Assembly (NCBI GenBank): GCA_902776435.1
Contig: CACYQB010000014.1
Location: 46,180 to 110,179 of the forward strand
Length of the DNA stretch: 64,000 nt
From: an uncultured Bacteroidales bacterium
GTDB taxonomy: Bacteria; Bacteroidota; Bacteroidia; Bacteroidales; Muribaculaceae
Direction of reading: 5' to 3'
The notes beneath the pieces are model-generated. The model was given only the letters and a program-made list of their open reading frames with translations, did no database searches and was not told where the DNA came from. Within the stretch, counting starts at the first letter, position 1. Each line of letters starts with the position of its first letter. The position numbers were made by a program, and so were the translations under genes. Of the stretch, positions 45,749 to 64,000 are shown one piece after another.

Positions 45749-46921
45749 TTAGTTGCGGCCAAACAGATTCTTGATGCCGTCCAAGTCAAATGACAGGCTG
45801 AAGCGCAGCGTCTGGTCCAGAGGACTGTTCTGAGCCGTTGCGATCATGTAACTGGCATCAATCTTGATGACGTTGAGCGAGAAACCGGCACCCAGGCCGA
45901 AGTACTGACGGTTACCGGCATACTTGCTCTCGTAGTAGTAACCACCACGCAGGAAGAACTGCTGGTTGTAGGCATACTCGGCACCCACCGAGTAGGTGAT
46001 GCGCTTGGCGAAGTTGTCACTGAAACTGTCGAAGATACCCGAAATGGAAGACTTATCCTTCCATACCTGCAAGGCATCATCATAGGCCAACGCGTCCTCA
46101 TAGTCAGCCAGACGGGGCTTGGCGGGAACCAGCAACTTGTTGGCGTCAACGGACAGCGTGAGGTTGTTATAGTCGGCCAGGGGGAAGGTGAACGCCGTAC
46201 CAATCTTGAGGTTGGCAGGCAGATAAGCGGGGTCATTACCCTTGTTATAGGACACCTTGGAACCGATATTTGATACATTGAAACCTAACGACCATTGGCA
46301 CTCGTTGCGGCCAATCACAGGGAAAGTGGTATAGTAGCCCGACAAGTCGGCCGAGAAAGCTGAGGCACCCGAGGTTTGCTCACCCGTATTCATCTGACTG
46401 TAACCCAAGTCACTATAGATGTAACGGAGCACAACGCCCATCGAGAACTTCTCACTCAACTTGCGGCTATATCCCAAGTCGAACGCCATCTCGAACGGGT
46501 TGATTGTTGCCAAGGTCGCACCTTCGCCGTCGGTTGCCATTACTTCGCCCAACGAGAAGTAACGCAGCGAAGCACTTACCGCCTGATTGTCACTGCTACC
46601 AATCTTATAGTAGCCCGACAAGTTAGCCAAGTAGATGTCATTGACAATCTTGCGCAGCCAGGGGGTGTAGGATAACGATACGCCAGCCTGACTGTAGGCA
46701 AAAGCATACTTTGACGGATTCCAGAACTGGGAGTTGACATCGGGTTCGGTTGCCGCACCCAGGTCACCCATCGACGCACCACGCGCATCGGGGGTGATAC
46801 TCAACGACGTAACACCCGTGGTCACGGGGTTGAACTCGGTGTTCTTGATATCGTCTTGGGCCCAAGCAGTTAATGCGGTAGCCATCAGCGCGATGGCAAA
46901 TATTGATTTTGTCAGTTTCAT
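45749..46921 (-). CDS. porV: PorV, T9SS outer-membrane shuttle/attachment protein
   Basis: A 390-residue FadL-like beta-barrel of type IX secretion. Signal peptide to Ala21, then Gln at +1 (AWA-QDDIKNTEFN). Family features: VTSLSITPDARGASMGDLGAATEPDVNSQFWNP split over residues 38-70, GVSLSYTPWLRKIV, and the strand-rich remainder ending in aromatic FSLSFDLDGIKNLFGRN. PorV carries cargo from the translocon to the PorU sortase. porU-like genes lie about 10 kb away instead of adjacent. Confidence 0.95.
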   Translation of the reverse strand: MKLTKSIFAIALMATALTAWAQDDIKNTEFNPVTTGVTSLSITPDARGASMGDLGAATEPDVNSQFWNPSKYAFAYSQAGVSLSYTPWLRKIVNDIYLANLSGYYKIGSSDNQAVSASLRYFSLGEVMATDGEGATLATINPFEMAFDLGYSRKLSEKFSMGVVLRYIYSDLGYSQMNTGEQTSGASAFSADLSGYYTTFPVIGRNECQWSLGFNVSNIGSKVSYNKGNDPAYLPANLKIGTAFTFPLADYNNLTLSVDANKLLVPAKPRLADYEDALAYDDALQVWKDKSSISGIFDSFSDNFAKRITYSVGAEYAYNQQFFLRGGYYYESKYAGNRQYFGLGAGFSLNVIKIDASYMIATAQNSPLDQTLRFSLSFDLDGIKNLFGRN

Positions 46922-47029: not shown

Positions 47030-49129
47030 TCAATTACCACTCAGCAACAGGTCAATCAAGGCCGTCACGTCACTGATGGTGACGTCGGTTGAGCCGTTCA
47101 CATCGGCAGCCTGGACATCAATTGAGGAGTCGTCACCACCCAGCAGGTAATCGATCAAAGCTGTCACATCGCTGATGGTCACATTGCCATCACGGTTCAC
47201 ATCGCCAATTTGGAAATCATCATTCAGATAAGGCAGATAAGTGTCCGTGACGTTGCTCACTTGGTATTTGTTGGTCTGAGTCGTCACCTCGAAGAAGGAG
47301 GTCTCCCTCACACCCGTCACATCCACGGTTTGGTGACTGCCTGCCGTGCTGCCACCCTGATTGAACACGAAGTTCACATAATACTGGCTACCTGTGATGG
47401 TGAAGGTCTTGTAGTAGAACTTCTCGCCATGCACCATGCGGGTGTCGGTGATCACCTCACCGGGCCAGTTGCCACATTGCTGCTGGTCGTTGCTGTCCCA
47501 GCAATAGTAGGTAACCCTCGGCCAGTTGTTGGGAGCGACCGTCGGGTCCTTGAGAAAGACGGTAATCTCGTAGGAGTCATAGTTCTCGTTGATGACCGTG
47601 TAGTTGCGGGTAATGACACCCGAAACCACGCCATTGATGAGTAAGCCTGCCTTCATGGTCAAGCACTTGTCAATCAAGACGCTTGCACCACTGGCAATCA
47701 CGGTGCCGTTGGTAGCGGTGGGGTCGGTGCCGTCGAGGGTATAGACGATCTGGGCTCCAGCGTTCTGACTTACTGCAGTCAAGGTGACGTTAAAGGGATC
47801 CTGACGCACGCCGCTGGGAACGCTCGCCCAAGCCGTGCCGGTGCTCTTGCTCAATGCCAGGCGATAATTGGTGCCGCTGGCCACAAGCACATAACTTGAC
47901 GGGATGGCATAACTCGTGCTGCCCATAGCGACCAGTAAGGTTCCACGCGTACCCGTGGTGGACCGCGCATAATAGTTGCTCGACGAATTTGATGCCTGCT
48001 GGGCTGTCGCGCTCGTGTTGGTGATACCGGCCAGTTGGCGGGCATAAATCATCTGCTTGATGCTCTCCTTGTAGTCCATCCAGTGCTTGAGGAAAATGCA
48101 GGGTGTACCCGGCATGGCGAGCATGTAGGCATTAGCGGCCTCGACATATTGTTTGATGGGATCTTGAGGGTCACTGGCACTGCGGTACTGCGTGTCGTGG
48201 TTCTCAACAAAGGTCACTGCATAGCGAGCGTAATTGGACTCCATATTCAAGCCCCTGCTTGTACCAGCCAGGTTAGTCCATTTATTATTGTTGACCGCGT
48301 CGCGGATGGTGTAACGGAACGGGAAGTCAAAGGCGGCACTCTGTACCACGCCGTTTACCTTGGTACCGTCAATCCAGGCCTTCACTGCGCTCAGGTTGCC
48401 GTCCCAGTACTCGCCAACGGAGTAGGTGGGATTAGCATAGGAGTTATAGATACCCGTATATTGGGCGGCATAGCCCTTGGTCATGTCGTAACGGAATCCT
48501 GCATAGCCCAGGTCGTCAAGCAACATCTTGATGTAAGCCTTGACGCTTTTCTGGACATTGGCGCTCGAGTGGTCCAGGTCACGCATTCCGCCCCAGTCCT
48601 CACCCGTATCGTTGTTGGCGCTCAAGGAATAGCCATTCTGGGTAGCCCATGTCAAGGCCGCACCGCCATCGTCATCACGGCAGATGTCGGTGGACTTCAA
48701 CTGGTAGGTGACACCCTTATAGGTCTCGGCAGGAAAGTCCACCCAGTTCGAGACGTTCTTGCGGTGATTGATGACCACATCGGCGATGGTGCCGATGCCC
48801 TTGCTGCTGAAGGTGTTGATCATTGACTGCAACTGGGCCTTGGTACCGAAGGAACTATTGTAGTTGGTGAACCAATACAAGTCGTCATATCCCATCGAGT
48901 TATATCCGCTGCAATGACCGCTCTGGGGAATCCACACGAGATCGAAAAATTCGGCAAATTCGTCGGCCTGCGACTCCAGTTTAGTCCACTGGCTGTCGCT
49001 ATAGGAGTCCCAATAGAACCCCTGCAGCATCACGCCGCCATAGTTCGACGGCCACCCCTGCCCTATCATCACTGCGGGCAGCATCAATAACAGTACAATA
49101 CTATAAATACGTTTCATTGTCATCCTCAT
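47030..49129 (-). CDS. Secreted GH13 alpha-amylase with Ig-like and starch-binding modules and a dockerin
   Basis: A 699-residue exported amylase. Signal ends at MIG with Gln24 at +1; Met5 is an alternative start. The (beta/alpha)8 domain has DVVINHRK, GFRYDMTKGY (nucleophile Asp215), SVGEYWDG (acid/base Glu240) and FVENHDTQYR (Asp312), so it should be active on alpha-1,4-glucans. Residues about 450-530 form an FN3/chitobiase-like domain (IVYTLDGTDPT). Residues about 535-630 resemble a starch-binding CBM26 (NNWPRVTYYCWD, YYVNFVFNQGG). Two dockerin repeats end the protein (GDVNRDGNVTISDVTALIDYL, DVNGSTDVTISDVTALIDLLL); the second has a damaged calcium loop. Confidence 0.93.
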   Translation of the reverse strand: MRMTMKRIYSIVLLLMLPAVMIGQGWPSNYGGVMLQGFYWDSYSDSQWTKLESQADEFAEFFDLVWIPQSGHCSGYNSMGYDDLYWFTNYNSSFGTKAQLQSMINTFSSKGIGTIADVVINHRKNVSNWVDFPAETYKGVTYQLKSTDICRDDDGGAALTWATQNGYSLSANNDTGEDWGGMRDLDHSSANVQKSVKAYIKMLLDDLGYAGFRYDMTKGYAAQYTGIYNSYANPTYSVGEYWDGNLSAVKAWIDGTKVNGVVQSAAFDFPFRYTIRDAVNNNKWTNLAGTSRGLNMESNYARYAVTFVENHDTQYRSASDPQDPIKQYVEAANAYMLAMPGTPCIFLKHWMDYKESIKQMIYARQLAGITNTSATAQQASNSSSNYYARSTTGTRGTLLVAMGSTSYAIPSSYVLVASGTNYRLALSKSTGTAWASVPSGVRQDPFNVTLTAVSQNAGAQIVYTLDGTDPTATNGTVIASGASVLIDKCLTMKAGLLINGVVSGVITRNYTVINENYDSYEITVFLKDPTVAPNNWPRVTYYCWDSNDQQQCGNWPGEVITDTRMVHGEKFYYKTFTITGSQYYVNFVFNQGGSTAGSHQTVDVTGVRETSFFEVTTQTNKYQVSNVTDTYLPYLNDDFQIGDVNRDGNVTISDVTALIDYLLGGDDSSIDVQAADVNGSTDVTISDVTALIDLLLSGN

Positions 49130-55652: not shown

Positions 55653-56012
55653 TTAAATGATGCGGGCTTTGAAACCCATGGACAGGAGTTGGTCGAGAAC
55701 CCGTTGGCGGAAATCACCTTGTATCAGAATCTCGCCACCACGGGCACTGCCGCCCACGCCGAGGCTCGACTTGATGCGCGAAGCCACAGCCTTGAGAGCC
55801 TCGTCGTCACAGACGAAACCAGTCACGATGGTAGCCTGCTTGCCGGCACGGCCTTTACGCTCAAGAATGATGTCGAGACGCGTTTTTCCCTGCTGCTGCA
55901 AGGCATCGCCCTTCGGCTCTTGATGTTGGGCCTCGGAGGGTGAATTGTTGTCATCAGGTACAGGCATATTGAACGCTTTGCCTAAGGCTTCTTTCCAGTC
56001 GATGGAGTCCAT
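55653..56012 (-). CDS. eIF1/SUI1-like translation factor (YciH family)
   Basis: A 119-residue protein. The ATG at 56012 (MDSIDWKEALGKAF) is preferred over 56036, which adds only a few non-conserved residues. The C-terminal SUI1 domain shows RLDIILERKGRAGKQATIVTGF and LGVGGSARGGEILIQGDFRQRV, the basic loop and core of eIF1-like proteins. It may affect start-codon choice. It lies 40 bases before the AddA-like gene, and they are probably cotranscribed. Confidence 0.92.
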   Translation of the reverse strand: MDSIDWKEALGKAFNMPVPDDNNSPSEAQHQEPKGDALQQQGKTRLDIILERKGRAGKQATIVTGFVCDDEALKAVASRIKSSLGVGGSARGGEILIQGDFRQRVLDQLLSMGFKARII

Positions 56013-56061
56013 TGCAATAAAAAAAATAGGTGTCAATTAAACTTTCATGTTTCTCTCACAT

Positions 56062-56400: not shown

Positions 56401-56426
56401 TTCCGATTACAAACGACGAAACAAGC

Positions 56427-56461
56427 ATTGCGGCTACATCCTGTTGGGATGCAGCCGCAAT
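56427..56461. terminator. Bidirectional hairpin terminator
   Basis: A stem of about 15 bp with one mismatch (ATTGCGGCT...AGCCGCAAT, inner CATCC/GGATG), between the ferredoxin gene and the convergent PorU-like gene. Confidence 0.8.
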
Positions 56462-56492
56462 ATTGTTTATAGCCCTATGGTGACCTGCTAAA

Positions 56493-59400
56493 TCAGTTGG
56501 CTGTCTTGACGGGGTCAAGGACGATGAGGTCTTTGATGGGCGTTCCACCGTGGTTCTTACCGTCATTATAGGTGCCAAAGTAGCGGTACAAACCAGCGGG
56601 CACCTTCTGGCCCTTCATGTCGATTACTGGCCAAGAAACGGGGAAACTGGTGGTTGTGGTCTTCCACACAAGATTACCGACGGCATCGGTCACACGCACC
56701 ACATACTCAGGACTGCCATCGACGGTTGACTCGACATCAAAGTTGACCGTCTCGCCACGATAGACAGGGAGTTTGTCGGCCACCAGAGTCGAGGCGCCCT
56801 TCTGCCCCACCATGAATGTGATGGTCCGTGAAGCACGCTGCCCCATCAGGTCGGTGACGGTGAAGGTAAGGGTATGCAAGCCTTCGGACAGGTCCTCCAA
56901 GGGATAATTGACACTGATAGACTTGCCGTCTTGACCAGCCGTAACGTAACTAGCAATATCGTCAAAGGAAGGTCTGCCACCATCAAGCATCAGGTTCAAG
57001 CCATTGGTTACTGAACCTATCTGAAGGTCGATGGCCTCATTGTCACTGGCCGTGATATAGGCCATCGATTTAGATCCCACCATGGCGCCATCAGCAAATG
57101 ACGACTCGTCATTGATGTACATGGCATCGATGACAGGTGCCTCGGTATCATTGAGGGCACTGCTGGCGCTATAGGGCAACATGACCACCTGCTGGGTGAA
57201 GCCGTTGACCATGACGGATGAATTGTCCTGATGGGCATACACGCGCAGCAGGACGTTTTCATTAGATGCCTTGACGGTTCTGGGGACAACCATAGTGCCC
57301 CTGAAAATACCGTTTTCCACACGTCCCGTCACCTCGCCCAACTTATCGCGGTTGAAGTAGATATCACGCTGGACGATCGAGCCCAGACTGGTACCCGACA
57401 TGGTATTGAACAGGACCGCCTTGTCGTACAACGTCATCGTGACATCGCCGTTAAAGGTATTGTCTAACTGACCATCGTTGTTCATCACCTGAGCCTCGAC
57501 CGTGAAACGCTTGAGGGGGCGGAGTTGCGCCCTTGCGGTAGTGTCGGTCACGTCGGTATTATTCACCTTGACAATGTTGAAACGCGAGACAGGATAGTTG
57601 ATCTTGATGGCCGGGTCACCCAGCAAGAAGAATTTCATCTTATTGTAATTGGTGTAGCCCATCTGATGCTTGGCCAGTCGCAATGCCTCGCCCAAGGTCA
57701 GGAACTTGCCCGTTTCATGGTGGCTGAACATCTGATTGATGAATCGGGTGGACAGCGCGTCGTTATCTCCTGAGAGCACCATGCGAGAAGCGGTAACCAA
57801 TGCGATGGCGCCACCATCCCGCTTGTGGTACATCAACTCGGCTACACCGGGACGCCCATAGTCAAAGTGGGCAACATTACAGCAGGATGTGACGATGATG
57901 GGCTGGTGATGATAGGAAGTACTCATCACATCACCATTGTTCCACATATCAATAGCCTTGGTAAAACCGATGGAACCGGCATGGCCCGTATAGATACCAA
58001 AATAGACGCCACTCTTTAGGCAGTGGGTCAACTGCTCCTTGGCAGTCGTAGCAGGCATTGCAGAGAGTCCCGAGCCTGACATGTAAGCGTAATTCACGCT
58101 ATCACGGGGATACTGGGCACCATGTACCGACATGGCGTGCATACCAGTGTTCTCATTGTCAAGCTGGTACCTATAGCCCTCACCCTGGAAGGTGAACTCA
58201 CCCTTGTTATTCTTGGAATCATCCGTGAAGACCAATGAGTTGTTGCGCCACACGCCATAGTCAGGGTTAGCATAGTACTCGACCAGTTTGTCCACATCAT
58301 TAACGGCCTCGTCCATGTTGTTACAATTCATGCGTCCCACGCCAATCGACAGCTTATCGGATGCAATATTGTTACCCGAATTGTCGGCCAGCATGCCATA
58401 GAAGTCGTCGGACGTATAGGAGAAGTCCTCGGTATTGCAGTTAACGGTCTGATAGGTGAGCAGACTCCCCTTGACATCACCTAAAACCCCGCGGTTATCA
58501 ATCGTACCGCCACCGAAGATAAGCAGATTCTTCAGTTTGTCAGGATTGCGGTCGTAGAGCATCTTGCAGAACAGGCGGTAAGCCATCGCGTCACGTGTGC
58601 CGCTGGAGAACTCGTTGAAAATCTGATCCTGATCGACAACCGTCACATCGATGCCATCGACAGCGCGGTGCAGCGCTGCCACGCGCTCGGCCTGGTCATG
58701 ATACATTTTGTCGGTGATAATGAGCAGTTCGGGAGTCTGAAGCCCGTGCAGGTTCTGATTTCCAACAGGCTCATAGGATGAAATCTTCTTCAACTGCTTG
58801 GTGGGGTCAAATGCAACAAACAAAGCATTCAACTCATTCTTGGAAGAGAAATAATACCCTTGAACTGAGTGCTCATTATACCTGACAACAGGAATCGAAA
58901 GCGGGTTAGAAGGATCGGTAACCGACCACACGACCGTTGATGAAGCAGCGCCAGGCAACATAAAGCGCTCGTTGCCCAAGACCTTGCCATAGCCCATGAG
59001 CAACTGGTTATCCTGGTTTGCCTTGATGACATTGTTACGCAAGTAAGTCAATATCACATAGTCCAGTCTCGCCAGGGTGAGGTCATCATCCGTGTTGGAG
59101 CCAAATGTCAAGTAAGGCTCCAAACGTCCCTGTTCCAATGGCCGCGACAGCTTGACAGCAGCATAGGGCGAAGAGAAGAAGTAATAATCATACTTGCCCG
59201 CAATATTGATGCGTGACGCGAGCGAAGAGAAGGGAACAGTATCGGTGATACCGCCACAGGTGACCGCCGTATTGATATAGGACAACACCTTGTTAACTGC
59301 GGCAGCCTGCGTATTCACGATGATGGTGCTGTCGGCAATTTCAGGCAAGGTGAAATCAATCTGCACCCTATTCAACAGCATGTCTTCGCCCAGCATTTCC

Positions 59401-59957
59401 CTTCCCGTCCTGGAGACAGACTCCAGCTCCTTCTCATGATAGAAGTAGTTGAGGCACATATAGCTGTCCACGGGATTCTCGGGAACCACCTGCTCGGCTG
59501 CGGTAATGCCCAACTCGGTGGTGCTTTCCTCGGTCAGGAAATAACATCCTTCCAGAGAGTAGGGATTAAATGCACGCGTGAAGCGAGCCAGGGTTGCGCC
59601 GCCAGTCAAGGAGAACTGCGTGTGTCCTTTGCCATAGAAGCACAGTTTATCCCTAGTGCGCAAGACGTGCACGGGCTGCAAGTCGTCGATAGCAGAGCCA
59701 TCGAGTTTCTCACTGATGCTGTAACCACCATTGCCATAAATCCTGACGTTGGCGGGATTAGAGAACCCCATGTCCCTCAACTCGTTGTATGTTATCTCAT
59801 ACACGCCGTCCTCAGGGATAGAGATTTTTACCCATTTACCCGTTGCTAATTTGGACTGGATGGCATACTTGGACACGTCAAATGCCTCGGCCACACTGGA
59901 GCACAGCAGTGCTATCATGGCCGTTAAAACCACTTGAAATGAAGTCAGCCTGCGCAT
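56493..59957 (-). CDS. porU: PorU-like C25-family sortase of T9SS, copy A
   Basis: An 1154-residue exported peptidase of the gingipain (C25) family, near the length of Porphyromonas PorU. Signal peptide to about Ala25. The N-terminal domain shows GKWVKISIPEDGVYEITYNE and VRIYGNGGYSISE. The catalytic dyad is His659 (IYTGHAGSIGF) and Cys693 (TSCCNVAHFD), 34 residues apart. NEFSSGTRDAMAYRLF is the conserved block before the catalytic domain. The C-terminal Ig-like end is VPAGLYRYFGTYNDG...IVLDPVKTAN. PorU removes the C-terminal signal from T9SS cargo and joins it to A-LPS. It follows copy B by 16 bases. Confidence 0.92.
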   Translation of the reverse strand: MRRLTSFQVVLTAMIALLCSSVAEAFDVSKYAIQSKLATGKWVKISIPEDGVYEITYNELRDMGFSNPANVRIYGNGGYSISEKLDGSAIDDLQPVHVLRTRDKLCFYGKGHTQFSLTGGATLARFTRAFNPYSLEGCYFLTEESTTELGITAAEQVVPENPVDSYMCLNYFYHEKELESVSRTGREMLGEDMLLNRVQIDFTLPEIADSTIIVNTQAAAVNKVLSYINTAVTCGGITDTVPFSSLASRINIAGKYDYYFFSSPYAAVKLSRPLEQGRLEPYLTFGSNTDDDLTLARLDYVILTYLRNNVIKANQDNQLLMGYGKVLGNERFMLPGAASSTVVWSVTDPSNPLSIPVVRYNEHSVQGYYFSSKNELNALFVAFDPTKQLKKISSYEPVGNQNLHGLQTPELLIITDKMYHDQAERVAALHRAVDGIDVTVVDQDQIFNEFSSGTRDAMAYRLFCKMLYDRNPDKLKNLLIFGGGTIDNRGVLGDVKGSLLTYQTVNCNTEDFSYTSDDFYGMLADNSGNNIASDKLSIGVGRMNCNNMDEAVNDVDKLVEYYANPDYGVWRNNSLVFTDDSKNNKGEFTFQGEGYRYQLDNENTGMHAMSVHGAQYPRDSVNYAYMSGSGLSAMPATTAKEQLTHCLKSGVYFGIYTGHAGSIGFTKAIDMWNNGDVMSTSYHHQPIIVTSCCNVAHFDYGRPGVAELMYHKRDGGAIALVTASRMVLSGDNDALSTRFINQMFSHHETGKFLTLGEALRLAKHQMGYTNYNKMKFFLLGDPAIKINYPVSRFNIVKVNNTDVTDTTARAQLRPLKRFTVEAQVMNNDGQLDNTFNGDVTMTLYDKAVLFNTMSGTSLGSIVQRDIYFNRDKLGEVTGRVENGIFRGTMVVPRTVKASNENVLLRVYAHQDNSSVMVNGFTQQVVMLPYSASSALNDTEAPVIDAMYINDESSFADGAMVGSKSMAYITASDNEAIDLQIGSVTNGLNLMLDGGRPSFDDIASYVTAGQDGKSISVNYPLEDLSEGLHTLTFTVTDLMGQRASRTITFMVGQKGASTLVADKLPVYRGETVNFDVESTVDGSPEYVVRVTDAVGNLVWKTTTTSFPVSWPVIDMKGQKVPAGLYRYFGTYNDGKNHGGTPIKDLIVLDPVKTAN

Positions 59958-59973
59958 AGCAATAATCCTTTAA

Positions 59974-62900
59974 TTACATCTCTGTCTTGACAGGGTCAAG
60001 GACAATAAGTTTGTTGATGGGCGTACCACCATAATTGGTACCGTTATTATAGGTGCCAAAGTAGCGGTACAGACCTGCAGGAACCTTGTTGCCGTTCTGG
60101 TCCTTCATGTCCCAGGTCACGGGGAAATTGTCGGTAGTTGTCATCCACATGAGTTTGCCAGTGGCATCGGTTACACGCACAATGAAATTGGTGTTCACAC
60201 TCAGTTCGGAATCCTTCAAGTCAAAGCTTACCACATCATTCAGATAAGCGGGCAACTTGTCGGCCACAATGTCGGCAGCCATGTTCTGGCCCACGATGAA
60301 CGTAATTGTGCGAGTGGCGAGGTTGCCTAACAGGTCGCAGACGGTGAACGTGAGCGTGTGCTGACCCTCGGAAAGGTTGCTCAAGGGATACTCAACATTG
60401 ACCACACGGCCGTTATCGTCGGTGGTGACAAAGCAATTCACATCGTTATATGAAACCTTGCCGCCATCGAGCATCAGGTTCATACCCTGGTCAACCGAGT
60501 TGGACTGCACATTGATACCCTGGTCATCGCTGGCACTGATGTAGAGGATGGCATCGGGAGCGATAATGGCACCATTGACAAAGGTAATCTCATCGTTGAT
60601 GAACATAGAGTTGACAACGGGAGCCGTATCATCCTCGATGGCATTCTGCTCATTATAGGGCAACATCGTGATATTCTTGGTAAAACCGTTGACCATTACT
60701 GAACTGTTGTCCTGGTGGGCATAGACACGGAGCAATACCGTCTCGTTGCTGGCCTCGGGATGCTCGGGAACGATCATCTGGCCATGGAACACACCGTTGA
60801 CAACACGTCCGCTCACCTCGGCAAGTTTCTCACGGTCGGTATAGATATCACGATCAGTGGAAACACCGTTCACTTTATCATTGACAGTAGTGAAGTAATC
60901 CTCCTTATCGTAGAGCGTCACTGTGGCATCACCGTTGAAACCGCTATCAAGATTGCCATTGCCATCCAGCACTCGAGCCTCGATGTCAAACCTCATCAGC
61001 GGGCTGATTTGTGCCATGGCATTGGTACTGGTCATGTTAGTCGTGTTGATCTTGGTGATATTGAACCTTGACACAGGGTAATTGATCCTCATGGCGGGGT
61101 CACCCAGCAGCAAGAACTTCAACTTATTGAGTTCATCATACTGCTTGCTCTCCACAAAGGCCTCGCCCAAAGTCGGCATCCTTCCCTGAGTGGCGTTGCT
61201 GAACAATGCGTTGATAAAGCGGGTATTCAGTCTGTCATTGTAATTGCTGTATACCGTGCGCGAAGCCGTCAACAGGGCAATGGCACCACCATTCTTCATG
61301 TGGAACATGTGTTCGGCCACGCCACGCTGGTCTCCGTCAAATCGAGCGACATCACAACAAGCGGTCGTCATAATGGGCAAATAACGCATCGGGGTATTGA
61401 TCACATCGGTGGTCACCCACATTTTGTTATACTTGGTGAAACCCGTAACGCCAGCATGGCCCACATAAGTGCCGAAATACACACCGCTCTTGAAGATGCG
61501 GGAGAGTTTCTGCTTGCCTACTACAGCCTCCCTGCGGGTGAAATCGGTGTTAGGTTGCGTTGTGGAACGGGGATACATGGAATTGTGAACCGTTGATACA
61601 TGCATACCGGTTGACAGGGCATTGTCAATCTGGTTCTTGTAGCCTTCACCGTGGAACATGTATTTGCCCTTATCGGGAGAGTCCGAGAAGACCATCGTAT
61701 TGTTGCGCCACACGCCATAGTCGGGGTTAGTGTAGTACTCGATGAGTTTGTCCACATCGTTCTTGGCTTCCTCAACATCAACGCAGGAAATACGTCCGAC
61801 GCTGATTGACAGCCTGTCGGTAGCCAGGTCTGTACCAGAATTGTCGGCAAGGAAACCGAAGAAATCGTCGGTGGTGTAGGAATTGCTCTCAGAATTGCTG
61901 TTATCACTCTGATAAGTGAGCAGGAATCCTGGATGCTCGCCAAAGATTTCACGATTGTCGAGCGAGCCAGTTCCCACGAGCAACAGATGCTTGAACTTCT
62001 CGGGGTTGCGGTCATAGAGCATCTTGCAGAACAGGCGGTAGGCCATCGCGTCACGCGTACCGCTCGAGAACTCGTTGAACACCTGATCCTGGTCAACGAC
62101 AGCCACGTCAATGCCGTCAATCACGCGGTGCAGCTCGGCGATGCGCTCAGCCTGCTCGTGGAAAATCTTGTCGGTGAGAATGAGCAACTCGGGCGTTTCC
62201 ATACCATGCAGGTTCTGGTTAGCAACCGTCTCAAACTTGGAGATTTTCTTCAACGTCTTGGCAGGGTCAAAAGCCACATAGACGGCACGGCTCGACGAAG
62301 TTGAGCAGAACGAGTAACCATTGCCACTGGCATCATTATAGGGCTCGAGATGCATCATCAAGGGAGACTTGGTATCATTCACCAGCCACACTACCGTCGA
62401 TGAAGTTGCCCCGGGAAGCAAGAAACGCTCAGTGCCCTTGGGCTTAGCGTAAGCCATAATCGTCTGGTTGTCATCTTCTTCCCTGATGATATTGTCGTGG
62501 GTATAAGTGATGATAAAATAGTCGAGACGCGCAATACTGAGTGGGTTATCCGCCGAATCACTGGTGACAATCGGCTCAAACTGACCATGCTCAGCAGGAT
62601 GAGTCAACCTTACAAGGCCGTAAGGAGCGGCAGTAGAGTAAAACTCCATACTAGTGGGCACCTCGAGACGGGCCATACTTGAAGAATAAACCGTCATATC
62701 GGTCGCACCTCCACTATGAATCAAAGCGTTAGCATAAGAAACATTACTATCGGGATAAGCAGCTAACGCCGTCTGCACCATAATGGTGCTGTCAGCCAGG
62801 TTAGGCAGATAATAGTCAACGAGCAGACGGTCATTGAGAAAATCCTCTCCCATCATCTCCTTGCCCGACTTACCGATTGAAATCAACTCTTTCTCGTGGT

Positions 62901-63417
62901 AGAGATAAGTCATGCTGGTGGGCTTGTCAATATAGGAAGTAAGTGTCACCAGAGGCTTGAAAGCAATCAGATTATCGGCAGAACCGTCCTCGGTGAGGAA
63001 ATAACAAGCCTCCTGGGCATAAGGATTGAATTCGCGTGAGAAGCGAGGATTAGTCGAGTAGTTGGTGTAAGTGAAACGGATGGGGCCGTTGCCATAGAAA
63101 CAGATCTTGTCTCCAGTGCGCATCAGGGGCACCGAAACCAAGTCATCGGTTGCCAAACCATTGAGAACTTCACTGATGCGGTTACCGCCAAAGCCGTAAA
63201 GCCTTACCGATGACGGATTGTTGAAACCCATTTCGCGCAACTCATTATTGGTAATCTCATACACGCCCGTCTCGGGGATGGAAATTTTAACCCACTTACC
63301 CGTTGCGAGTTTAGACTGAGTGGCATAATGAGACACGTTAAGCGCACTTGCCATGCCAGAACACAGTAACAGCATCATGGCTGTGCAAACAACCTGTAAT
63401 ATCGATTTTTTACGCAT
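59974..63417 (-). CDS. porU: PorU-like C25-family sortase of T9SS, copy B
   Basis: An 1147-residue paralogue of copy A, collinear along its whole length. Signal peptide MRKKSILQVVCTAMMLLLCSGMASA has a start similar to that of copy A. The dyad is His654 (TYVGHAGVTGF) and Cys688 (TTACCDVARFD), so both copies look active. The block NEFSSGTRDAMAYRLFCKML is identical in the two. The C-terminus (GTPINKLIVLDPVKTEM) is closer to the partial third copy than to copy A. It has its own promoter and is probably cotranscribed with copy A. Confidence 0.92.
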   Translation of the reverse strand: MRKKSILQVVCTAMMLLLCSGMASALNVSHYATQSKLATGKWVKISIPETGVYEITNNELREMGFNNPSSVRLYGFGGNRISEVLNGLATDDLVSVPLMRTGDKICFYGNGPIRFTYTNYSTNPRFSREFNPYAQEACYFLTEDGSADNLIAFKPLVTLTSYIDKPTSMTYLYHEKELISIGKSGKEMMGEDFLNDRLLVDYYLPNLADSTIMVQTALAAYPDSNVSYANALIHSGGATDMTVYSSSMARLEVPTSMEFYSTAAPYGLVRLTHPAEHGQFEPIVTSDSADNPLSIARLDYFIITYTHDNIIREEDDNQTIMAYAKPKGTERFLLPGATSSTVVWLVNDTKSPLMMHLEPYNDASGNGYSFCSTSSSRAVYVAFDPAKTLKKISKFETVANQNLHGMETPELLILTDKIFHEQAERIAELHRVIDGIDVAVVDQDQVFNEFSSGTRDAMAYRLFCKMLYDRNPEKFKHLLLVGTGSLDNREIFGEHPGFLLTYQSDNSNSESNSYTTDDFFGFLADNSGTDLATDRLSISVGRISCVDVEEAKNDVDKLIEYYTNPDYGVWRNNTMVFSDSPDKGKYMFHGEGYKNQIDNALSTGMHVSTVHNSMYPRSTTQPNTDFTRREAVVGKQKLSRIFKSGVYFGTYVGHAGVTGFTKYNKMWVTTDVINTPMRYLPIMTTACCDVARFDGDQRGVAEHMFHMKNGGAIALLTASRTVYSNYNDRLNTRFINALFSNATQGRMPTLGEAFVESKQYDELNKLKFLLLGDPAMRINYPVSRFNITKINTTNMTSTNAMAQISPLMRFDIEARVLDGNGNLDSGFNGDATVTLYDKEDYFTTVNDKVNGVSTDRDIYTDREKLAEVSGRVVNGVFHGQMIVPEHPEASNETVLLRVYAHQDNSSVMVNGFTKNITMLPYNEQNAIEDDTAPVVNSMFINDEITFVNGAIIAPDAILYISASDDQGINVQSNSVDQGMNLMLDGGKVSYNDVNCFVTTDDNGRVVNVEYPLSNLSEGQHTLTFTVCDLLGNLATRTITFIVGQNMAADIVADKLPAYLNDVVSFDLKDSELSVNTNFIVRVTDATGKLMWMTTTDNFPVTWDMKDQNGNKVPAGLYRYFGTYNNGTNYGGTPINKLIVLDPVKTEM

Positions 63418-63490
63418 ATCTAAAGTATTTTAATTATCAATCCTTAACGATAATAACATTTCTCAAGCAATCATACTTGCCTATAGCCGA

Positions 63491-63521
63491 CAAAAATACG
63501 AAAAGTTTTTGGACTGACAAA
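63491..63521 (-). promoter_or_regulatory. Promoter of PorU-like copy B: TTTG, 19 bases, TATTTTTG
   Basis: On the minus strand, TTTG (63521-63518) is followed after 19 bases by TATTTTTG (63498-63491), fitting both Bacteroidetes promoter elements. It lies 74 bases upstream of copy B. Confidence 0.6.
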
Positions 63522-63579
63522 CATCCAGTCCCAAAGATTTTTTGCCATCGGCTTCAATCTCACTTCAGTGTCATAAAAA

Positions 63580-63620
63580 ACATCGTGCGGGCTCGGTCAC
63601 AGGGACCGCCCGCACGATGT
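63580..63620 (-). terminator. Hairpin terminator of PorU-like copy C
   Basis: A perfect 13-bp stem (63580-63592 with 63608-63620), extended by GGTC/GACC, followed on the minus strand by six T. Confidence 0.88.
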
Positions 63621-63651
63621 CTATAACATCTGCCTCACTGGCAGCGATGGA

Positions 63652-64000
63652 TTACTTCGTGGGTGTCTTGACAGGGTCAAGGACGATGAGCTTGTTGATG
63701 GGCGTACCACCATAGTTGGCCCCATCATTGTAGGTGCCGAAGTAGCGGTACAAGCCTGCAGGAACCTTGTTGCCGTTCATGTCCTTCATATCCCAAGTCA
63801 CAGGGAAGCTGTCGGTGTTCGTCATCCACATGAGTTTGCCGGTAGCGTCGGTCACACGGAAGATGAACTTGGCATTGGAGTTCATGTTGGCAGCGTCGAG
63901 ATCAAAGTTCACCACATCATCCACGTAGGCGGGCAACTTGTCGGCCACGATGTTGGCCGCCATGTTCTGGCCCACCATGAAGGTGATTGTGCGCGTTGCG
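63652..64000 (-). CDS. PorU-like protein, copy C, C-terminal end only (runs off the right edge)
   Basis: The last 115 codons of a third PorU-like gene, open to the window edge (the frame begins ...ATRTITFMVGQNMAANIV). It matches the C-terminal Ig-like region of copies A and B: VPAGLYRYFGTYNDGANYGG and INKLIVLDPVKTPTK. It is clearly closer to copy B. The catalytic domain is outside the window, so activity cannot be judged. It has its own terminator, so it is a separate transcript from B and A. Confidence 0.88.
   Translation of the reverse strand, partial: ATRTITFMVGQNMAANIVADKLPAYVDDVVNFDLDAANMNSNAKFIFRVTDATGKLMWMTNTDSFPVTWDMKDMNGNKVPAGLYRYFGTYNDGANYGGTPINKLIVLDPVKTPTK

Follow-up and report, generated by a model that had tools for sequence, protein, structure and literature searches.

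Why should a bacterium encode several PorU sortases of the type IX secretion system (T9SS) side by side? This question is raised by a 64,000-nucleotide stretch of DNA (hereafter the window), bases 46180-110179 of contig CACYQB010000014.1 (C14) in the 43-contig draft genome GCA_902776435.1 (G000) of an uncultured Muribaculaceae bacterium. At its right-hand end, on the minus strand, the window contains two complete porU open reading frames (ORFs) of 1154 residues (aa) (56493..59957) and 1147 aa (59974..63417), separated by 16 bases, and, 234 bases further on, the last 115 codons of another (63652..64000; ORF 63652-63999); in the order of transcription, these are the third, second, and first genes of the array. 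The original prediction for this DNA, which described the ORFs in the same way, took the copies to be paralogues with different cargo or lipid-anchor partners. We put at about even odds the reading that these PorUs, together with a parallel set of PorZ proteins encoded elsewhere in the genome, are diversified sortase and glycolipid-carrier sets that work on one PorV/PorQ platform.

Because the window stops at the end of C14 (base 110179), the first gene of the array is cut by the assembly. Another contig of the same genome, C8, opens with the 5′ part of a porU copy, 867 codons long (L037:1-2601), upstream of which lie a 191-aa FAA-hydrolase-domain gene (fah), then rex, and then a further porU. 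We refer to the porU upstream of rex as class A and to the porU genes of the array as class B. When compared with the array of a relative (L175), the C8 piece shares 79% identity with the first class B copy and 65% with the next best, and the corresponding values for the contig-end piece are 77% with the first copy and 76% with the second; the product of 59974-63417 is nearly equally close to the first (69%) and second (68%) copies, and that of 56493-59957 is 74% identical to the third. Most simply, the C8 and contig-end pieces belong to one split first class B copy, with ∼165 codons unseen between them, and the simplest arrangement suggested by these comparisons is porU-A, rex, fah, three porU-B, and sui1. 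The genome would then contain at least four porU genes, one of class A and three of class B, and the gap between C8 and C14 may hold further porU-B copies.

The same gene order is found in relatives. The best 80 matches to the array represent 64 distinct stretches (labeled Muribaculaceae, Prevotellaceae, Porphyromonadaceae, Bacteroidales, Candidatus Sodaliphilus, and, once, "bacterium"), and their unbroken contigs read porU-A, rex, fah, one to four or more porU-B, and sui1. Class B frames longer than 300 aa number one, two, three, and four in 27, 20, 12, and 5 of the 64 stretches, respectively, some of which end inside the array or share a genome and one of which holds a broken copy. Because 37 of the 64 stretches have at least two class B copies in this order on a single contig of another assembly, assembly duplication is ruled out, and the tandem porU array is confirmed as real and not a product of chance. 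Two of the stretches (L179 and L196) have two consecutive class A porU genes ahead of rex.

To place the array in its genus, we compared 37 Muribaculaceae genomes, the window's own and 36 drawn from a larger group, which we infer to be Sodaliphilus-like; this genus has a cultured member with a closed genome, Sodaliphilus pleomorphus (PMC7738495). PorU frames shorter than 650 aa and PorZ frames shorter than 500 aa were left out of the copy counts, two copies cut by the border of a fetched stretch were included (the second class B copy of G006 and the class A copy of G018), and two split genes were counted once (the first porU-B of G000 and a PorZ-A of G007 split by a stop). Class A and class B porU are each present in all 37 genomes, with one to four class B copies, and the close relatives therefore do not have the single porU that would have spoken against the array. 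Beyond the genus, at least 51 of the 171 other Bacteroidales genomes with a PorU match have two or more, by a hand count in which at least one split gene (G042) and a genome with a full copy plus pieces (G066) are included and a count of three means at least three. The premise of the original prediction that a T9SS genome normally has one porU is thus only mostly true. Among the matches listed, adjacent same-strand porU pairs also occur elsewhere in Bacteroidales (for example, G041, G049, and G039). A tandem porU is, in itself, less surprising than the original prediction held; the parallel growth of PorZ, described below, is more so.

The products of the array are PorU proteins by several measures. 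Both complete window copies exceed the equivalog cut-off (420 bits) of the NCBI PorU model NF033707, with 650 and 712 bits, and the class A PorU and the partial copy on C8 score 942 and 544 bits. On the PorU2 model NF052324 (cut-off 450), the two complete copies reach 90 and 96 bits, which places them outside that family. PorU of Porphyromonas gingivalis (6za2) is the only sequence match in the PDB at E ≤ 0.01 for both the 1147-aa copy and class A. The AlphaFold model of the 1147-aa copy (pLDDT 85.6, pTM 0.82) has latent PorU 6za2 as its best fold match (E 2.7e-72, TM ∼0.5, rmsd 15.4 over 1188 columns), and, according to this predicted model, the PorU fold spans the whole copy; the match holds domain by domain, and the arrangement of the domains does not superpose well. 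As the original prediction stated, both complete copies keep the catalytic His/Cys dyad at a spacing of 34 residues: H654/C688 in the 1147-aa copy, confirmed by alignment column, and H659/C693 in the 1154-aa copy, derived from motif positions. The dyad is intact throughout class B in the genus (His in 74/74 rows and Cys in 73/73 readable rows, one row being truncated), and His and Cys are likewise retained in 26/26 PorU rows from outside the genus. A C25-domain tree separates 18 PorU rows, drawn from both classes and from other families, with support 100/100 from the two other C25 proteins of G000, which make up the non-sortase side of this tree and reach 24 and 30 bits on NF033707; a grouping of the extra copies with non-sortase C25 peptidases, the other outcome that would have spoken against the original prediction, was therefore not seen.

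Class B is set off from class A by a long stem branch (0.77 in the PorU tree and 0.68 in the C25 domain alone). In a mixture-model tree, class B joins the second PorU of G175, a genome from another genus of the same family (support 100; the branch is very long), and class A groups with G061 and the remaining copy of G175. Because each class joins a PorU from outside the genus, the split between them probably predates the genus. In class B, the copies of seven subclades group among themselves to the exclusion of others, and the array has therefore been re-expanded, or homogenized, several times. The two classes also differ in their C-terminal domain (CTD): in the sample aligned, class B lacks seven loop residues that are present in class A and has an extended tail. 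Mean identity between species is similar for the two classes in the C25 part (0.53 in class B versus 0.54 in class A) and lower for class B in the N-terminal (0.41 versus 0.48), Ig-like (0.45 versus 0.57), and C-terminal (0.47 versus 0.69) parts.

The two complete window copies are 55% identical overall (dN 0.38 and dS ∼1.8, the nonsynonymous and synonymous divergence). Their identity is uneven, at 82% in one 60-column pre-catalytic block versus 33-64% in the N-terminal blocks, so that the copies are indeed more alike around the pre-catalytic block but are not "near identical," as had been claimed. Class A orthologues of different species are similarly uneven (0.67 pre-catalytic and 0.48 N-terminal); the profile therefore reflects ordinary family constraint and cannot serve as the sign of cargo divergence that the original prediction saw in it. 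Gene conversion was considered as a source of the unevenness and rejected, as dS is high along the whole window pair except for the last 52 codons (0.59); in the CTD of one pair of G006, dS is 0.07 against 0.41, and conversion is at most local and confined to 3′ ends.

Among pairs of class B PorUs within one genome (n = 43), the median identity is 55% and the median dN/dS is 0.25 (maximum 0.65); for within-genome pairs of class B PorZ (n = 37), the corresponding values are 67% and 0.14 (maximum 0.25), with 5 PorU-B and 7 PorZ-B pairs of saturated dS excluded from the ratios. Judged by these substitution patterns, both families are old, maintained genes under purifying selection, in line, for PorU, with the view of the original prediction that the copies are paralogues and not dosage copies. 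Positive selection on substrate-facing domains was also considered and rejected, given that no whole-pair ratio exceeds these maxima; at the level of domains, where the values cover the eight closest pairs per family, the highest dN/dS is 0.73.

A separate kind of PorU was seen in five of the 37 genus genomes, namely class A-derived copies, full-length or nearly so, in which both dyad residues are lost (His to Arg or Cys, and Cys to Ala): G002:C237:18940-22392, G018:C13:226840-230397, G023:C103:291-3662, G032:C25:119388-122816, and G035:C17:8799-12230. No such copy was found in the window genome. These copies are 79-95% identical to one another, with dS 0.07-0.45 and dN/dS 0.25-0.39, indicating purifying selection. 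They share ∼3.6 kb; the four with flanks have no flanking sequence in common, and the fifth fills its contig. They seem to be an inactive sortase paralogue that moves between species of the genus, and a repeat search around two of the units found no terminal repeats. In one genome (G035:C17:8799-23827), the dead copy adjoins the PorZ array.

PorU and PorZ are known to keep uncleaved CTDs (PMC11285876). Other proteins with a class B-like CTD were sought in the window genome, but the 115-residue contig-end fragment matched nothing beyond PorU frames and, less strongly, frames arranged in a row on contig C15 that we identified as PorZ. This row has five PorZ genes, four of class B and one of class A. 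The four PorZ-B frames score 313-350 bits on the PorZ model NF052228 (cut-off 260) and so belong to that family, the N-terminal propeller PF21544 gives 64 bits in the one PorZ-B tested, and one PorZ-A and one PorZ-B match the PorZ structure 5m11 (E 2e-54 and 4e-41). Across the genus, each of the 37 genomes has two to six PorZ-type frames, as placed by a tree, and at least one PorZ over the NF052228 cut-off; among the matches listed, a few of the second copies score lower than this. Of 198 genomes sampled across the order, 174 others than the window's have a PorZ match, and, among the matches listed, six have two; in only two of these (G038 and G206) are both near-full-length, the other four doubles being pieces, and both of these genomes have at least two PorU matches. 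In a sample of the family outside the genus, at least two PorZ matches occur in 13 of 93 genomes and, by our reading, two near-full-length ones in 9 of 93 (PorZ counts of five in the order sample and nine in the family sample are lower bounds). PorZ duplication is therefore not unique to this genus, but how far it has spread and how deep it goes here are.

PorV, the outer-membrane partner of PorU, shows no such growth. The window contains porV (45749..46921, minus strand; NF033710, 464 bits against a cut-off of 250) ∼10 kb downstream of the porU array on the same strand, and its product scores 30 bits on the PorV2 model NF052325 (cut-off 325). PorV was found once in 35 of the 37 genus genomes and never twice; in the remaining two (G004 and G026), only a weak match of a second type was seen. 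In the window genome, the weak match of this second type is PorQ (NF033711, 368 bits; cut-off 220), and, according to the NCBI models, G000 has the genes for all of PorU, PorV, PorQ, and PorZ.

The numbers of PorU-B and PorZ are coupled. Over the 37 genomes, PorU-B number correlates with total PorZ number (Spearman 0.52, p = 0.001, uncorrected), and phylogenetic contrasts on the PorU-A tree give r = 0.61 (p = 6e-5, n = 36 contrasts), a value reached by none of 2000 simulations of unlinked traits. The same contrasts on a rex plus fah tree, with rex missing in four genomes and fah in one, give r = 0.617. Without the five genomes whose arrays touch contig ends, r is 0.62 on the PorU-A tree and 0.58 on the rex plus fah tree, and with genomes at least 85% complete only, it is 0.62. 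At least three PorZ are present in 19 of the 24 genomes with two or more PorU-B versus 3 of the 13 with one. PorU-B number does not correlate with genome size (r = 0.10) or completeness (0.05), nor with the number of CTD proteins (−0.10) as counted with PF18962, a model that may overlook rumen cargo and that also picks up a few porU frames. The number of cargo proteins was accordingly rejected as what drives the array. Of the partners proposed in the original prediction, the lipid-anchor side thus gains indirect support, as PorZ rises with PorU-B, but the cargo side does not, as the count of detected CTD proteins does not follow the sortases; nor was the outer-membrane partner PorV ever found twice.

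Several observations weigh against a tight link between the two families. Without the clade of G000, G006, and G035, r drops to 0.42 (p = 0.013), and when four further genomes are removed (G018, G021, G023, and G024), it is 0.39 for total PorZ (p = 0.03) and 0.33 for PorZ-B alone (p = 0.08); the uncorrected Spearman correlation of PorU-B with PorZ-B is 0.31 (p = 0.059). PorZ number also trends weakly with genome size (r = 0.31, p = 0.06). The relation is not one to one, as G012, G013, and G029 have three PorU-B and two PorZ, and G025, G026, and G032 have one PorU-B and three PorZ. A mirror-tree comparison gives a partial correlation of 0.57 for PorU-B and PorZ-B (10 species), a signal that is not specific to this pair because PorZ-A and PorZ-B keep 0.56. 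Outside the genus, G175 has a class B-like PorU and one PorZ, and most genomes with multiple PorUs have one PorZ among the matches listed. Finally, the search for CTD proteins in the window genome gave few, with 7 over the cut-off.

How could such sets operate? In P. gingivalis, PorU sits on PorV and PorZ on PorQ, the four forming the attachment complex (PMC8545088, PMC5562754), and PorZ binds both anionic lipopolysaccharide (A-LPS) and PorU (PMC8545088). By analogy, the class A PorU would be the ordinary C-terminal signal peptidase and sortase, and the class B PorUs would be additional active cysteine transpeptidases, re-amplified in separate lineages after an early split from class A. They would work with the parallel class B PorZ set, with the single-copy PorV and PorQ common to all. 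PorV would deliver the secreted cargo, a PorZ paralogue would present its own form of glycolipid, and the matching PorU would remove the CTD of the cargo and join the new C terminus to that glycan; more PorU/PorZ sets would then mean more types of anchor, or more classes of cargo, on the surface. As PorU and PorZ grow jointly and PorV stays constant, what has increased would, on this scheme, be the number of catalytic and carrier sorts, not the number of docking sites. A narrower version, in which each class B PorU has its own PorZ-B carrying a different glycolipid and one cell would thus have several anchor codes, is tentative, and we consider it clearly less probable than the general scheme.

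Other roles for the class B PorUs have to be weighed against these diversified sortase and carrier sets. They could be surface C25 proteases or hydrolases that are held on PorV by the PorU scaffold and no longer anchor cargo. The long stem branch of class B would fit such a change, as would the drift of its C-terminal and Ig-like parts while the catalytic part was held, and the shortened loop and extended tail of its CTD. We nevertheless consider this unlikely, because the window copies score well above the PorU equivalog cut-off, the predicted model has the full PorU architecture, and PorZ, known in P. gingivalis to supply PorU with the glycolipid anchor, expands along with them. Somewhat less likely again is a regulatory role, in which class B would form mixed dimers with class A and tune its latency within one mixed attachment complex. 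Here, the crystallization of P. gingivalis PorU as a latent dimer (title of 6za2), the failure to find PorV twice in any genome, and the purifying selection on the dyad-less paralogue of five genomes are all in favor, but pure regulators would not need so many active sites, and no readable class B row has lost its dyad.

Simple dosage, with more sortase copies for more cargo, is an improbable explanation. It would agree with the adjacent, same-strand position of the copies and with the report that T9SS substrates vastly outnumber attachment complexes in P. gingivalis (PMC5562754), but not with copies that are 55% identical and saturated at synonymous sites, nor with CTD counts that do not follow PorU-B counts. 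An assembly or binning artefact might be suspected in a draft whose contig break falls inside the array; with the same order on single contigs elsewhere and copies too diverged to be duplicate assemblies, we regard its probability as negligible.

Further features of these loci are as follows. Just 3′ of the last array gene is a terminator-like hairpin of 16 pairs (56426..56462, minus strand), found by consensus matching, which gave 10 such hairpins across the region against 6.6 expected. A gene resembling sui1, which in many relatives forms the downstream border of the array, lies at 55653..56036 on the minus strand, and an α-amylase gene with a C-terminal repeat that appears dockerin-like by eye (47030-49129) lies between porV and the array. 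Within the fetched PorZ stretches, 12 of 37 genomes have an MBOAT acyltransferase gene and 9 have an AlgX-like gene, and in those 9 both lie between PorZ-B and PorZ-A (for example, L281:4767-7275). Pairs of MBOAT and AlgX-like proteins O-acetylate polysaccharides elsewhere, and these neighbors would, from their context, fit a role in glycan work or diversity. DUF4251 genes are present in the PorZ stretches of 14 of 37 genomes (for example, L138:14048-15145), and their products, as judged by eye from the N termini, are probable small lipoproteins. Two other loci of the window genome (G000:C28:92-3397 and G000:C36:1668-5042; L039 and L040) each encode a C25 peptidase (727-745 aa) and, after it, a protein of 369-374 aa with a CTD; the last 25 residues of the two CTD-bearing proteins are identical, and we regard these as candidate T9SS cargo pairs.

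In the open-access literature, to which the search was largely confined as subscription papers were mostly outside its scope, no paper combining Sodaliphilus with type IX secretion and no paper mentioning PorU2 was found, nor, by title and opening abstract lines, one on multiple PorU/PorZ sets; "duplicat" and "paralog" are absent from the main text of PMC7323717. Proteins anchored by the T9SS in gut commensals affect host physiology, as in the removal of trypsin by Paraprevotella (PMC9477747), and the linking sugar varies between species (PMC11969387). If sortase and carrier sets have diversified as proposed, this diversity of linking sugars would occur inside one genome, and the proposal predicts that individual PorU paralogues are specific for individual PorZ paralogues and that a cell has at least two anchor glycans.

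Compared with known systems, the window copies resemble P. gingivalis PorU (6za2; NF033707) in their full domain order, His/Cys dyad, C25 domain, C-terminal T9SS-type domain, and nearby porV. They differ in number, with one porU in P. gingivalis against at least four in the window genome by the simplest reading, in the shorter CTD loop and longer tail of the class B sample aligned, and in the faster evolution of the Ig-like and CTD parts. The tandem same-strand porU pairs of G041, G049, and G039 are alike in layout but group outside the window's clade (G039 was placed in one of two trees). The system of putative sortase PorU2 (NF052324) and putative PorV2 (NF052325) also brings a second PorU-like protein into T9SS genomes, but the window copies and PorV are far under both cut-offs, and the array is therefore not that system. 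One PorZ-A and one PorZ-B of the window genome are similar to P. gingivalis PorZ (5m11; NF052228) in structure match and in the Pfam N-terminal propeller, but two to six copies are present per genome in this genus. Finally, genes for all four members of the PorU:PorV:PorQ:PorZ attachment complex are present in G000; unlike in that complex, PorU and PorZ have multiplied in this genus and PorV has not, so that the joint growth of sortase and glycolipid carrier separates the fixed from the adaptable parts of the attachment machinery.

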